DNA from: Verrucomicrobiaceae bacterium
Lineage (GTDB): Bacteria; Verrucomicrobiota; Verrucomicrobiia; Verrucomicrobiales; Verrucomicrobiaceae
Length of the DNA: 64,000 bases
Assembly: GCA_016795365.1 (NCBI GenBank)
Contig: JAEUHN010000001.1
Coordinates: forward strand, 1 to 64,000
Direction of reading: 5' to 3'
Shown: positions 28,710-34,409 of the stretch, one piece after another
Layout of the letters: every line of letters begins with the position of its first letter
How positions within the stretch are numbered: position 1 is the first letter of the stretch
Made by a program: the position numbers and the translations under genes
Notes under the pieces: generated by a model
Databases searched by the model: none
Told to the model about the DNA's origin: nothing
The model's input: only the letters and a program-made list of their open reading frames with translations

Positions 28710-29915
28710 ATGAAGCCCCTGCTCGCCTTCCCCCTGGTTCTGATCTCGTCCTTCTCCGTGCATGCGGCCTCCATCGTCGTGGAAGGCGGTGCCGTGGAGC
28801 GCAGTCCGGCCATCGTGACCTTCGATGCGCCAGCGGACCTGCGCGATGCGTGGGTAAGCGATGGCAAAGGCGCGCCGCTGCCGGTGCAAGTGGATGACCA
28901 GGGCAAGGCGGTCGTGGTGATTCCCCATCTCGCGGCCAACGAGACGCTCACCCTCAAGCCCACGACACCACCCTTCGCCCCCGAGATCCCAGTGAACGCC
29001 ACGAAGCAAGGCAGCGTGCTGCGTTTCACCAAGGGCGCAGAGCCGATGTTCGACTACCAGATGGAGGCGGGCGATGTGCCTGCGGGGGTGTCCGAGGTCT
29101 TCAAGCACGGCGCGCATCTGCATCCGATCTACTCGCCCGGTGGACTGCTCGTGACCGGCAATCATCCCGCGGATCATCGCTGGCATCGCGGCGTGTGGAT
29201 GGCCTGGACGAAGACAGAGTTCGGCAGCAGCCATCCCGACTTTTGGAATCAAGGCAAAGGTGAGGGCAAGGACAAGAGCAGCGAGAAGATCGACGCCGAG
29301 GTGCGCTTCGACTCGTTGGTGAAAAGCTGGAGTGGTCCCGTGCAAGCGGGCTTCGTGAGCAAGCATCGCTTCATCGATTATCACGAAGGCACCAAAGACG
29401 TGCTGAACGAGACGTGGGAAGTCACCGCCACCCGCGCGAAGGCTGGCGACAAGGCGATCAACGTCATCGACCTCACCAGCACGCAGACCTGCGCCAGCAG
29501 CACCGCGTTGAAGCTGCCGCAGTATCACTACGGCGGCCTGGGCGTGCGCGGCAACGCCTTGTGGGACCCGGTTGATGCCGTGACCATGCTGACCAGCGAA
29601 GGCAAGGACCGCGTCCAAGGCGACTCCAGCAAGGGCAAGTGGGTGCACATCGGCGGACAGGTCGATGGCAAGCCGACCGGCATGGTGATCCTGATCCATC
29701 CCTCGAACTTCCGCTTCCCCCAGCCGCTGCGCCTCAATCCGAAGAACCCGCAGCTCTGCATCGCGCCCTCGCAAGACGGCGACTGGAGCATCGAACCCGG
29801 CAAGCCGTATGTCTCGCGCTACCGCCTCGTCACCGTCGATGGACCGGCGGATGTGGCGTTGTTTGAGAGGCTGTGGATCGACTACGCAGCGCCCGCAAAG
29901 GCGAGCGTGAAATAG
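28710..29915 (+). CDS. Secreted DUF6807 (PmoA-like) protein
   Basis: A 401-aa protein with a signal peptide (MKPLLAFPLVLISSFSVHA). The diagnostic region 'GNHPADHRWHRGVWMAWTKT' around residues 149-169 and the later 'GGLGVRGNA', 'WVHIGGQVDGKPTGMVIL' and 'YRLVTVDGPAD' fit the DUF6807/PmoA family of beta-sandwich proteins found in sugar-utilisation contexts of Planctomycetes, Verrucomicrobia and Bacteroidetes. The enzymatic role is not known. It is divergent from gnd. Confidence 0.88.
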   Translation: MKPLLAFPLVLISSFSVHAASIVVEGGAVERSPAIVTFDAPADLRDAWVSDGKGAPLPVQVDDQGKAVVVIPHLAANETLTLKPTTPPFAPEIPVNATKQGSVLRFTKGAEPMFDYQMEAGDVPAGVSEVFKHGAHLHPIYSPGGLLVTGNHPADHRWHRGVWMAWTKTEFGSSHPDFWNQGKGEGKDKSSEKIDAEVRFDSLVKSWSGPVQAGFVSKHRFIDYHEGTKDVLNETWEVTATRAKAGDKAINVIDLTSTQTCASSTALKLPQYHYGGLGVRGNALWDPVDAVTMLTSEGKDRVQGDSSKGKWVHIGGQVDGKPTGMVILIHPSNFRFPQPLRLNPKNPQLCIAPSQDGDWSIEPGKPYVSRYRLVTVDGPADVALFERLWIDYAAPAKASVK

Positions 29916-29995: not shown

Positions 29996-30922
29996 ATGAT
30001 TTCTGAATGTTCCGAGCCCGAGATGGTGGTCCATGAGTCACCGAGGGTGGTTCTAGAGACGAAGAGTTTGCGCCGTCATTTTGGGGCAGTGCACGCGGTG
30101 GACGACGTGAGCCTGTCCGTCAGAGAAGGCGAGATCTATGGCTTCCTCGGCGTCAATGGTGCAGGCAAGACGACCACGATTCGCCTGCTCATGGGCATCA
30201 TCGCAGCACAGGCGGGCACGATCACGCTCATGGGCGAGACCTCGAAGCGCACGACGGTGCGGCAGAAGCGGCGCATCGGCTACGTCTCGCAGGAGCAGAA
30301 CTTCTATCCGTGGATGACATGCCGTCAGTTGGGGCGCTTCGTGGGCTCGATGTATCCGACGTGGCAAAAGGCAGAGTTTGCCCGGCTGCTGGAAGTCTTC
30401 GAGATCCCGGAGCACCGTCGCGTGTCTCATCTCTCGGGAGGCATGAAGGCGAAGCTGGGACTCGCCCTCGCACTCGCTCCCCGACCCGACTTGCTCATCC
30501 TCGATGAGCCCACGGCCGGCCTCGATCCTGTCGCACGACGTGAGTTCATGCAGATCATCGTGGCGCAGGCGAGGCAACATCGGCGCACGACGTTCTTCTC
30601 CTCGCATCTGATTGATGAAGTGGAGCGCTGCGCGGATCGCGTGGGCATTCTGCACGGTGGCAGGATGCGCTTTGAAGGCCGGCTGGATGACCTGCGAACG
30701 GAAGTGCGCCGGGTGGTGATGCCGGGTGAAGTGGCGGTGGAGATGCCACCCGAGTTTGAGTGCTGGCGCGAAGAGCAATTCGAGGACCGCACAGCGCTGA
30801 TCTTGCGCGCGGCACCCGAGGTGTGGGAGGAGATGGAACTGCCAGACGGCGGTGAAGTCGAATGGCTGTCACTGGAGGACATCTTCATCGCCTGTGTGGG
30901 GTCGCGGAGGCTGCAACTATGA
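29996..30922 (+). CDS. ABC transporter ATP-binding protein
   Basis: A 308-aa ATPase from ATG 29996 (ATG 30023 is an alternative). It has Walker A 'GVNGAGKTTTIRLL' near residue 52, the Q-loop around 'YVSQEQNFYPWMT', the signature 'SHLSGGMKAKLGLALAL', Walker B 'LLILDEPTAGLDP' and the switch His in 'FFSSHLIDEVERC'. The C-terminal about 70 residues are an extra regulatory domain as in NatA/CcmA-like exporters. Its stop overlaps the next permease ATG (ATGA), so the three genes form one exporter operon. Confidence 0.95.
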   Translation: MISECSEPEMVVHESPRVVLETKSLRRHFGAVHAVDDVSLSVREGEIYGFLGVNGAGKTTTIRLLMGIIAAQAGTITLMGETSKRTTVRQKRRIGYVSQEQNFYPWMTCRQLGRFVGSMYPTWQKAEFARLLEVFEIPEHRRVSHLSGGMKAKLGLALALAPRPDLLILDEPTAGLDPVARREFMQIIVAQARQHRRTTFFSSHLIDEVERCADRVGILHGGRMRFEGRLDDLRTEVRRVVMPGEVAVEMPPEFECWREEQFEDRTALILRAAPEVWEEMELPDGGEVEWLSLEDIFIACVGSRRLQL

Positions 30923-32460
30923 TTCGCGGGCTGATCGAGAAGGAACTGCGGCAAAGCCGGATGGCCTTCCTCATGATGCTGCTGTTTCTTGGCACGGGAC
31001 TCTGGGCGGTGTTTCGCTCGCCATTGGTGCTGAGGTCAGGCGGCAGTTCGTTCGATGCCATGCGCATGCTGCTCTTCGTCTTCATGCCACTGGCTTGCCT
31101 CGTGCTGGCGCAATCGGTGATCGCTGGCGAGTTCCGGCAAAAGGCGCAGCTCTTCCTCGAAGGGCTGCCGCTGCCACGCTGGCAGATGATCGCGGTGAAA
31201 TACACGCTCGGTCTCGGCATCGTCTGGCTGGTCACACTCGCGATGGGTGCCGGAGCATGGTGGCACACGCAGGGTGCCGAGTTGCTCACTCATCGCTTCG
31301 TCTCGCTCATCGCAGTGAAGGCTCTGTCATGGGGAACTTTTTGCTGGAGCGTGTTCTTCGCGCTGGGATTCCTCGGGCGCTATCGCACCTTCATCACCCT
31401 CATCCTTGTGATCGGCCTGCTGATGGCGGAACAGGAAGGCGTGCCAGTGAGCCGGTTTGGTCCCTTCGATTTGATGAATGGACGCTTCGCATTCGAGCGG
31501 TTCGTCTGGCCTGAAAAAGCCCTGTGGATCACAGGCGCAATCGTCGTCAGCACCGCATTGTTAGGCTTTGCCCTGGGTCTCGTTCGCGATGCCTCCGTGG
31601 CCACAATGCTAGCGGAGAAAATGTCCACTCGCGAGAAAGTGATGATTGGCATCATCACCCTCATCGCCCTCATGAGTATTGGCTTCGTGGAGCAACGGAA
31701 GCGAGACGCTGGGCCGGTGCACCTCCCAGGATCGGTCGATGTGGTGAAAGGCGCAGCCACCGTGTCCGCAGCGGCCGCTGTGGAGACCTTGACGCCCGAG
31801 GAATCCGCTGCGCTCAACACCTTCACCAATGCCACCGCCTCCGAGCTGGATGAGATGGCGAAATGGCTGAAGTGCGAATCGTTGCCACCTCTGTTCCTCG
31901 TCCATCGCCGGGACTTTGATGCGAAGCAGCGCGAGGATGGCGAACTCGATTCTCGCCAGGGCTACATGATCCGCCTCAATCTCACGAAGCAGAAGCCCGA
32001 CGATCCTGAACTTCAGGAAGAGATAATCTGGATGCTTCTCCGAGTGCATCATCACTACCGGCTGCCATCGGATGACAGAGGTTGGGTGGTGGATGGCTTT
32101 GCCCGCTGGTGGCCACGCCGCCATGAAGAAGAGAAGCTCGGCAGCAACGCGAATCTCCCGGCCGCCAAAGCGGAAGATCTGAGGGCATGGCTGAAGGTTC
32201 GCGAAGTAAGCGGAGATGACGCCGCCAAGAACTTGGCCGCTGCTGGACTCGTCGCTCTGGCTCACACGGCAGGCGGGCAAAAGCGGCAGCTCTTTGTGTC
32301 TTCGATTCTGGGACCACCAACGCCCCACGATGCACGAGCCTCGTTGCTCGAATGGCTGCATCCGGTTTCCCGTCGCTTCGAGCAGACCACGGGCATGACC
32401 TTGGAGGAGTTCGCCTCTGCTTGGGCCAAGGCTTCTTCGACGAAGGAGGTGAAGCCATGA
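30919..32460 (+). CDS. ABC-2 type permease fused to a degenerate peptidase-like domain
   Basis: A 513-aa protein starting in an ATGA overlap with the ATPase. Six or so TM helices (about 17-37, 54-75, 95-118, 138-158, 197-218, 238-256) form an ABC-2 permease. The remaining about 255 residues are extracytoplasmic. There, 'WMLLRVHHHYRL' (H377-H379) sits where the partner permease has its HExxH, and 'WVVDGFARWW' sits where the partner has its glutamate, so this copy looks like a catalytically dead gluzincin-like domain. It ends in an ATGA overlap with the partner permease. The assignment of the domain is by comparison with the neighbouring gene. Confidence 0.85.
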   Translation: MIRGLIEKELRQSRMAFLMMLLFLGTGLWAVFRSPLVLRSGGSSFDAMRMLLFVFMPLACLVLAQSVIAGEFRQKAQLFLEGLPLPRWQMIAVKYTLGLGIVWLVTLAMGAGAWWHTQGAELLTHRFVSLIAVKALSWGTFCWSVFFALGFLGRYRTFITLILVIGLLMAEQEGVPVSRFGPFDLMNGRFAFERFVWPEKALWITGAIVVSTALLGFALGLVRDASVATMLAEKMSTREKVMIGIITLIALMSIGFVEQRKRDAGPVHLPGSVDVVKGAATVSAAAAVETLTPEESAALNTFTNATASELDEMAKWLKCESLPPLFLVHRRDFDAKQREDGELDSRQGYMIRLNLTKQKPDDPELQEEIIWMLLRVHHHYRLPSDDRGWVVDGFARWWPRRHEEEKLGSNANLPAAKAEDLRAWLKVREVSGDDAAKNLAAAGLVALAHTAGGQKRQLFVSSILGPPTPHDARASLLEWLHPVSRRFEQTTGMTLEEFASAWAKASSTKEVKP

Positions 32461-34409
32461 CGCTGACCATCCTGAGCAAAGAATTGCGGTCGCTTCGCAT
32501 CTACGTGCTGCTGGTGTTTGGATACGTGTTGCTGGAGTTTGGCTACGTCTGCGTCACAGAGTTCCCCGATCTCCAAAGCTTCGCTGCCGCAGACCACATG
32601 AACGGCGAGAAGTCCGAGATCATCGCCTTCTCCGTGATCTTCGGTTCCATCATCGGTGCCTTCGCCCTCGGGCAGGAGCGTGAACAAAGAACGCAGAGTT
32701 TCCTCGATGGTCTGCCGGTGAGCCGTTGGCAGGTGTTCCTGATGAAACTGATCGCTGCGTGCCTGATCGCCATCCTATGGCCCATCGCTCACATGGCCCT
32801 GCACGTTGGGTGCGGTGCTTTGTCAATGACGTCCATATCCGAGCCGATCAACTGGGCCTACACAGGCGCGGTGATCGCCTCAGGGTCGATTCTCGTGACG
32901 ATGATCGTGTGCATCGCGATGATGCTTTCTTTCCTGCGCCAATGGTTCGCGCTCGGGGCAGGCCTCGCCGTCTGGGGCGTGATCTGGCTGCGCATGAATG
33001 CACCTGATTGGGCCCGATGGTTCAACACGACCGAGCTTTTCGTTTTTGAACTCAAGGACGGCATGGTGATAGCGTGGCCGTGGCAGACCATGATGGCCCA
33101 CGCGGGCGTCGCCCTGGCGGCGATGATCATCGCTGGCTGCGCCTATGCCTGGCGCGATGGCTGGTGGTCGCGCCTGCTGCAGCGATGGGGGCGCTGGCGG
33201 TTCTTCGCCTGGCTGAAGGTGCTGGCACCGGTGGGTGCAGTGGTGGCCTGGATCGGAGTGATGATCCAGGTCAGCAAAGACGATGATGAGCCTCCATCCC
33301 GGCGGCAGACCACTCAGATCGCCGCAGGCACCGCGAGCCAGCCCAAGCCCGGCAAGGACACTGCAGAGGGCTCTGACTTCGATCCCTTCGATTCGCGGGA
33401 AACCAAGCACTATGACTTCTTGCTTCGAAGGTCTCAGGCCGACAAGGCCAGTGGTCTCATCCGTCTGGCTGATGTTGTTCACGACGAAGCCGCATCATTC
33501 TTTGGTTCGGCTCCGGCACCGCCCGAACGCATCGTGGTGGACCTCGCGAGTGCCGTAGTCTCCCATGCCGCCGGGCAGACCAACTGGACCAAGGTGCGGA
33601 TGCCGCTTCGCCCCGAGTTCTCCAGCGATGAACTGCGCCGCATCCTGCGCCACGAGACGGCGCATGTTTACATCGAGCAGCTCAGCGATGGCGGGGCCTC
33701 GTCCTTCTTCAACGAAATGCGCGCCTTCCATGAAGGAGCGGCCACGGCAGCCGAGTTCGCCACCCCCAGCAAGGACTCCGAAAAGACCCGCGCCGAGATG
33801 GAACTCTGGGCCGCCCTCGCCCACTCGCGCGGCACCATCTCGCTCGACCTGCTCTGCAACAACAAAGCCCTGAGCCGCGATCGCGATGGCTTCCTGGTTT
33901 ATCCGCTGGGCTATGTTTTCACACGTGCGCTCATTCGCGCAGGCGGGGTCGATGTTCCTCGCCGTGCGATGGAAACGCTGCGCGATTCGCCCCCCGCGCC
34001 TGGCACCTCGGGTGCGGATGTGTGGCGCCACATCAGCCAACGATGCGGAGTTTCCTGGGAACGAGTGATCGCGATCTACGCGGATGAACTGAACACGCTA
34101 GTCAAGCGCGAGCAGGCGACGATCGCCCGACTGCCTCGGGTGAAGGCCAAGGTGCAGGTCGTGGGCGATCAGATCGTCATTCACCCTCAACTCGGCGCGA
34201 TGGCGGTGCCTGCGCGCTTGCGCTGCCGCGTGGAGAAGGATCGTGGTCTCATCGACGAGCCCGTTTCGCTGCGAATGAATGCCAGTGGCGACTTCGTCCT
34301 GCCACGCGCCGAGCACGCGGGGATCAAGCTCCGCTACCTGATCGGCTGGCAAACGCATCAGGGCATGGCATCGGCCTATGAGCCCTGGGAAGAAGTGACG
34401 CTCGAGTAA
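32457..34409 (+). CDS. ABC-2 type permease fused to a gluzincin (HExxH) peptidase-like domain
   Basis: A 650-aa protein starting in an ATGA overlap with the preceding permease. Residues about 1-280 are an ABC-2 permease with six TM helices, the N-terminal 'LTILSKELRSLRIYVLLV' and 'FLDGLPVSRWQVFLMKL' matching permease 1. The extracytoplasmic C-terminal half contains 'RRILRHETAHVYIEQLSD' (H399-E400-T-A-H403) and 'MRAFHEGAATAAEFA' (E426), a plausible zinc site (HExxH plus a downstream Glu) of the gluzincin/peptidase MA type. A final beta domain is at 560-650. It may cleave exported peptides or the cell wall, but the substrate is unknown. Confidence 0.85.
   Translation: MTLTILSKELRSLRIYVLLVFGYVLLEFGYVCVTEFPDLQSFAAADHMNGEKSEIIAFSVIFGSIIGAFALGQEREQRTQSFLDGLPVSRWQVFLMKLIAACLIAILWPIAHMALHVGCGALSMTSISEPINWAYTGAVIASGSILVTMIVCIAMMLSFLRQWFALGAGLAVWGVIWLRMNAPDWARWFNTTELFVFELKDGMVIAWPWQTMMAHAGVALAAMIIAGCAYAWRDGWWSRLLQRWGRWRFFAWLKVLAPVGAVVAWIGVMIQVSKDDDEPPSRRQTTQIAAGTASQPKPGKDTAEGSDFDPFDSRETKHYDFLLRRSQADKASGLIRLADVVHDEAASFFGSAPAPPERIVVDLASAVVSHAAGQTNWTKVRMPLRPEFSSDELRRILRHETAHVYIEQLSDGGASSFFNEMRAFHEGAATAAEFATPSKDSEKTRAEMELWAALAHSRGTISLDLLCNNKALSRDRDGFLVYPLGYVFTRALIRAGGVDVPRRAMETLRDSPPAPGTSGADVWRHISQRCGVSWERVIAIYADELNTLVKREQATIARLPRVKAKVQVVGDQIVIHPQLGAMAVPARLRCRVEKDRGLIDEPVSLRMNASGDFVLPRAEHAGIKLRYLIGWQTHQGMASAYEPWEEVTLE

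Follow-up and report, generated by a model that had tools for sequence, protein, structure and literature searches.

What is an ABC transporter doing when both of its permeases carry a large C-terminal domain, one with the look of a zinc peptidase and the other a degenerate version of it? The question is raised by three genes in the window (the whole 64,000-nucleotide stretch of Verrucomicrobiaceae DNA that was analyzed), which encode an ABC ATPase and two permeases, here called P1 and P2. No paper describing an ATPase-P1-P2 system was found in the literature searched.

The operon and its ABC-2 core

The three genes overlap through ATGA sequences at positions 30919 and 32457, exactly at the coordinates given in the first-pass annotation, and form a self-contained operon (Table 1). 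The order ATPase-P1-P2 is kept in every locus for which the contig is long enough. Within the ATPase we identified intact Walker A (GVNGAGKTT), signature (LSGGM) and Walker B (LLILDEPT) motifs as well as the H-loop, which marks the product as an ABC ATPase. Its nearest relatives in NCBIfam are PmtA, RbbA and DrrA, all far under their cut-offs; PmtA, the nearest model, is matched with a score of 182.8 against a cut-off of 350, and the protein is thus not a member of this family.

Table 1. Features of the ATPase-P1-P2 operon (window coordinates).
Feature	Position	Strand	Remarks
ABC ATPase (NBD)	29996..30922	+	ATG 29996, stop 30922; Pfam ABC_tran PF00005, E 1.3e-31
Permease P1, 513 aa	30919..32460	+	ABC-2 transmembrane domain and degenerate gluzincin-like domain, predicted periplasmic
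P1 C-terminal pseudopeptidase domain (residues 264-513)	31708..32457	+	homology to P2 domain, hhalign E 1.4e-6
P1 V376-HHH-Y380 (VHHHY)	32044..32058	+	end of matching helix
P1 D392 (WVVDGF)	32092..32094	+	opposite P2 E426; D in 14/31, C in 11/31 P1s
Permease P2, 650 aa	32457..34409	+	ABC-2 transmembrane domain followed by an M1-like gluzincin domain and a beta domain at the C-terminus
P2 seventh transmembrane helix (247-274)	33195..33278	+	hydropathy; model helix 248-276; basic stretch precedes
P2 AGQTNW (372-377), edge strand	33570..33587	+	place of M1 GxMEN motif; Glu is Thr/Ala in all relatives
P2 zinc motif H399-E400-T-A-H403 (HETAH)	33651..33665	+	invariant 32/32
P2 E426 in FHEG (FHEGAAT)	33732..33734	+	predicted third zinc ligand; invariant 32/32
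P2 Y482 of YPLG	33900..33902	+	counterpart of the transition-state tyrosine of M1; M1 enzymes of the order read YPKG here, most P1s have Ala

Structure comparison of the AlphaFold2 models (mean pLDDT 86 for P2 and 82 for P1) gave NosY as the closest fold for both transmembrane domains (residues 1-234 of P2, Z 17.4; residues 1-224 of P1, Z 15.4). ABCG, ABCA and PmtCD are matched as well, PmtCD being among the fold matches of P1. The ABC-2 fold is also recognized by Pfam, through PF12679 in P2 (E 1.6e-7) and through ABC2_membrane_4 in 31 of 32 P2 and 27 of 31 P1 sequences. Based on hydropathy and the models, in which the six ABC-2 helices are joined by a seventh, both C-terminal domains are predicted to be periplasmic.

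Upstream of the operon, at positions 28710-29915 of the window, lies a gene for a DUF6807 protein (Pfam, E 1.6e-54), which elsewhere is not conserved beside the operon. Across the loci no conserved neighbors were found, save for synteny among close relatives, and no substrate gene was found next to the operon; the lack of conserved neighbors suggests that the substrate is perhaps encoded elsewhere.

Two known systems resemble this core. The phenol-soluble modulin exporter PmtABCD is likewise an ABC-2 exporter with paired permeases, and it contains the ATPase to which the nearest NCBIfam model belongs, but it lacks periplasmic domains, unlike P1 and P2. NosFY(D) shares the transmembrane fold and the single ATPase gene, whereas NosY has no peptidase domain and NosD is a separate periplasmic protein. 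The latter likeness bears on the main rival to an export function. In FtsEX the ABC unit serves to activate cell-wall hydrolases, and in NosFY to drive NosD, with NosY as the mechanotransmitter; by analogy, the ABC motor could transport nothing and open or activate the periplasmic peptidase by conformational change, with the P1 pseudopeptidase as a moving gate. Such an arrangement would fit the NosY fold of both transmembrane domains, the neighborhood devoid of a substrate gene, and a peptidase that is tethered to the permease instead of being free. However, the likeness to NosY is that of the general ABC-2 fold, as the matches to ABCG, ABCA and PmtCD illustrate, and no periplasmic partner gene is conserved beside the operon. 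We consider an ATP-gated peptidase of this kind unlikely.

The C-terminal domains of P2 and P1

In the model of P2, residues ~310-548 match ERAP2, IRAP, LTA4H and other M1 enzymes (Z ~15.5 for ERAP2 and LTA4H), and the best Foldseek match of the domain is IRAP (6ydx, E 3.8e-5), which points to a gluzincin fold. The first-pass annotation had proposed HETAH and E426 as a zinc site of the HExxH+E type. These residues were confirmed: H399, E400, H403, H425, E426, G427, Y482 and G485 are invariant in all 32 aligned P2 sequences, each of which holds the HExxH motif and downstream Glu that define clan MA(E). Most of these sequences came from a scan with motif patterns, which is biased towards an intact P2, whereas the searches with the P2 sequence and with the P1 profile are free of this bias; HExxH and HEG were also present in eight P2s from the whole-sequence search and in two that adjoin P1 matches (L115 and L145). 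Because the site is invariant, with support from these motif-independent finds, it is not due to chance. Conservation at this level supports the prediction that P2 carries a complete gluzincin site and is an active-looking peptidase.

Compared with the M1 aminopeptidases and leukotriene A4 hydrolase (clan MA gluzincins), the P2 domain is alike in its modeled fold and in the collinear arrangement of HExxH, downstream Glu and the Tyr of YPxG, all of which align in order with M1 enzymes of the same bacterial order. The Tyr that follows the zinc site in M1 enzymes (YxKG) has its counterpart in Y482, found in 32/32 P2s and aligned with YPKG. The P2 domain differs from M1 enzymes in the spacing between HExxH and Glu (22 residues versus 18), in the absence of the N-terminal M1 domain and in its fusion to an ABC-2 permease. 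It also lacks the Glu of the exopeptidase motif GxMEN: the corresponding sequence reads AGQTNW or AGQAYW, with Ala at the Glu position in 24/32 and Thr in 8/32 P2s. Because of this replacement, the usual M1 aminopeptidase activity is not supported for P2. Of the M1/gluzincin likeness drawn initially, the fold and the motif order thus stand for P2, and the aminopeptidase part does not.

The score between P2 and M1 sequences (56.5) is dominated by the motif block and lies barely above that of the best motif-keeping block shuffle (55.3), so that sequence alone is no proof of M1 kinship. When PDB sequences were searched with the P2 profile, no M1 enzyme was found and NosY was returned at E 2.1; the curated Peptidase_M1 model matches only 4 of the 32 P2 relatives (best E 0.12). 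The assignment of a probable M1-like fold to P2 rests on the structure model. In the P1 and P2 of the window, Pfam and NCBIfam name only the ABC-2 membrane parts, with a SprT-like match at E 0.18. Among the P2 relatives Pfam finds SprT-like in 12/32 and Peptidase_MA_2 in 11/32 (E up to 0.5), and it finds no peptidase match in the P1 domain across the relatives. As the domain is nearly invisible to both collections, the most that annotation is likely to give for such genes is an ordinary ABC permease.

BLAST of P1 against P2 aligns essentially only the membrane parts, and profiles are therefore needed to assess the homology of the C-terminal domains. With hhalign, the two domains align over 306 columns with a score of 55.0 (E 1.4e-6), compared with 16.2 for the reversed control and 29.9 for the best of 60 block shuffles. 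The AlphaFold2 models show the secondary-structure elements of both domains in one and the same order: a pair of strands, then a helix, three more strands, the helix of the zinc motif and further helices. These results support the homology of the P1 and P2 domains, with one fold and a common origin, and answer the check for a shared fold that the first-pass annotation had put forward. The P1 domain matches known structures weakly, with the M1 tricorn factor F3 (1z1w) found by Foldseek at a probability of 0.99 but an E-value of 0.25; in the structure comparison of P1, gluzincins are not among the matches listed, all of which belong to the membrane part.

In no P1 does HExxH occur at the matching place. 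The sequence HEWAH in the P1 of one locus (L054) was rejected as a zinc site, as it lies off the site position. Across the 31 P1 sequences the catalytic positions are variable or lost, the Tyr position being Ala in 25. In the profile alignment G393 lies opposite G427, and D392 aligns with E426 as originally proposed; VHHHY, which had been placed opposite HETAH, falls after the HETAH turn and is not conserved among P1s. The contrast between one active-looking and one degenerate domain holds across the aligned set, with the site present in 32/32 aligned P2s and absent from every P1. The P1s of L039, L040, L041, L043, L046, L053, L054 and L056 extend ~110 residues further at the C-terminus and appear to keep the beta domain found at the end of P2, which the P1 of the window lacks.

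Distribution and conservation of the pair

Among 115 related genomes searched, P2 was found at full length in representatives of the window's own family and order, and the motif-pattern scan of the collection yielded 43 loci, of which 32 are ABC-fused. The loci are found mainly in Verrucomicrobiota MAGs (Prosthecobacter-labelled, Verrucomicrobiales and Chthoniobacter-labelled), with others in bins labelled Pirellula, Pirellulaceae, Planctomycetaceae and Acidobacteriota; such MAG bin labels may be wrong. Searching for P1 gave matches in 23/387 genomes of the order. Fourteen of these were new in that search, and their contigs, judged by length, correspond to loci that the P2 scan had located before and in which P2 is intact. 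P1-profile searches in samples of two other phyla matched 4/396 and 3/392 genomes. P1 paralogs in the window's own genome are limited to a single weak partial match.

One further complete operon (L145; P2 with HETVH) was found in Acidobacteriota, and two divergent ones (L146 and L147) in Planctomycetota. The ATPases of L146 (G1306:C74, 1-5988) and L147 (G1146:C357) are degenerate, with DVPH/DVPG for DEPT and no LSGGQ, and the P2 of L146 reads HATAH, with loss of the catalytic Glu and replacement of Tyr by Ala. Judged by its motifs, L146 is apparently a fully dead exporter that has kept the architecture. The weak phylum matches L068, L069 and L071 were rejected, as they cover the membrane part only and have no HExxH. 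We also rejected L057-L067 as members of the exporter group, as these are standalone genes, flanked neither by a matching ABC ATPase nor by a matching permease; they derive from Acidobacteria and one deltaproteobacterium and encode Peptidase_MA_2-like proteins (RHEVAHV) that resemble the P2 domain, with L064 reading into HTH and MerB-like parts. A second, divergent P1-P2 pair (L115; G523:C141, 1726-5719) is present in a genome that also has a standard pair. In the P2 of this pair HELAH/FHEG is retained and an F5/8 type C domain (E 4.7e-16) is added at the C-terminus; the accompanying P1 is without HExxH.

The genome survey for active/degenerate pairs envisaged at the outset thus found the pair conserved across relatives. 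The pairing is old, occurring in Verrucomicrobiota, Planctomycetota and Acidobacteriota, and sporadic in the latter two. Pairwise identities of P1 and P2 correlate strongly (r = 0.96, 31 loci; Mantel 0 of 2000), as explained by shared descent, and this correlation speaks against frequent partner swapping.

The sparse, patchy spread is of interest in view of the ATPase, which resembles DrrA, PmtA and gallidermin-immunity ATPases. Both would agree with a self-protection system, in which the pump would clear the inner membrane of membrane-active peptides, to be destroyed by the peptidase in the periplasm. Loss, however, also explains patchiness, and no bacteriocin or immunity genes were recognized nearby; sequence by itself does not separate self-protection from processing. 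We hold self-protection to be quite improbable.

The P1 domain is under purifying selection: its dN/dS is ~0.07-0.27 in most pairs, similar to that of the P2 domain and of both membrane domains. In one very close pair (L027/L028) a value of 0.96 rests on very few changes and carries no information. W389 is invariant among the 31 P1s, and G393 and R381 are nearly so. The loss of all catalytic positions, and a C-terminus ~110 residues shorter in the window's family than in other lineages (L039, L056), could be taken to mean that the P1 domain is a decaying remnant without function, but its dN/dS, the retained residues and its maintenance in three phyla make this highly improbable.

A possible peptidase/pseudopeptidase exporter

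The reading that we favor, at a probability of about one half, is an exporter in which a zinc peptidase in P2, paired with a dead domain in P1, cuts a peptide at the exit. As there are two permease genes and a single ATPase gene, we infer that the complex is most simply a P1-P2 heterodimer with two ATPase copies, which would constitute an ABC-2 (type V) exporter. Each permease would contribute six NosY-like transmembrane helices, the seventh helix and a large, presumably periplasmic domain of M1/gluzincin fold. In P2 this domain is predicted to act as a zinc peptidase, with H399, H403 and E426 holding the zinc, E400 as the base and Y482 stabilizing the transition state; the domain of P1 would be its conserved, catalytically dead paralog. 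Both domains may lie side by side over the channel exit, the dead one holding or positioning the emerging peptide, or closing the active chamber, and that of P2 cutting. In favor of this reading are the constant gene order, the site kept in P2 and missing from P1, the joint divergence of P1 and P2, the modeled M1 fold of P2, the homology of the two C-terminal domains and the purifying selection on P1, together with the intact ATPase motifs, the peptide exporter ATPase PmtA among the nearest named families and PmtCD among the fold matches of P1. It is weakened by the neighborhood, which is not conserved and shows no substrate gene, by the motif-dominated sequence score between P2 and M1 enzymes, by the weak Foldseek match of P1 and by L146, in which the architecture can persist without catalysis. 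More tentatively, the operon may represent a class of exporters with a peptidase/pseudopeptidase heterodimer in the permease pair, where the dead subunit would be a substrate receptor or an ATP-driven gate and cutting would be coupled to the transport cycle.

Pairs of an active and a dead paralog are known, among other enzyme/pseudoenzyme pairs, from the mitochondrial processing peptidase (alpha/beta). P1/P2 resembles it in this pairing; the mitochondrial enzyme, in contrast, belongs to M16 (inverted HxxEH), is soluble and involves no transporter. ABC transporter permease/M1 family aminopeptidase fusions exist as NCBI protein names, and none was found in the literature searched. Going by their names, they likewise join an M1-like periplasmic domain to an ABC-2 permease, whereas here there are two separate permeases with one domain each, one of them dead. 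While permease/M1 fusions were thus already annotated, the novelty lies in the conserved division of an active and a dead domain between two permeases.

ABC exporters with a C39-type peptidase cut in the cytoplasm before transport. In contrast, the peptidase of P1/P2 would act on the far side of the membrane, as an active/dead pair with one domain per permease. The pair thereby provides a clean test of the work done by a pseudoenzyme partner and of the coupling between ATP use and proteolysis.
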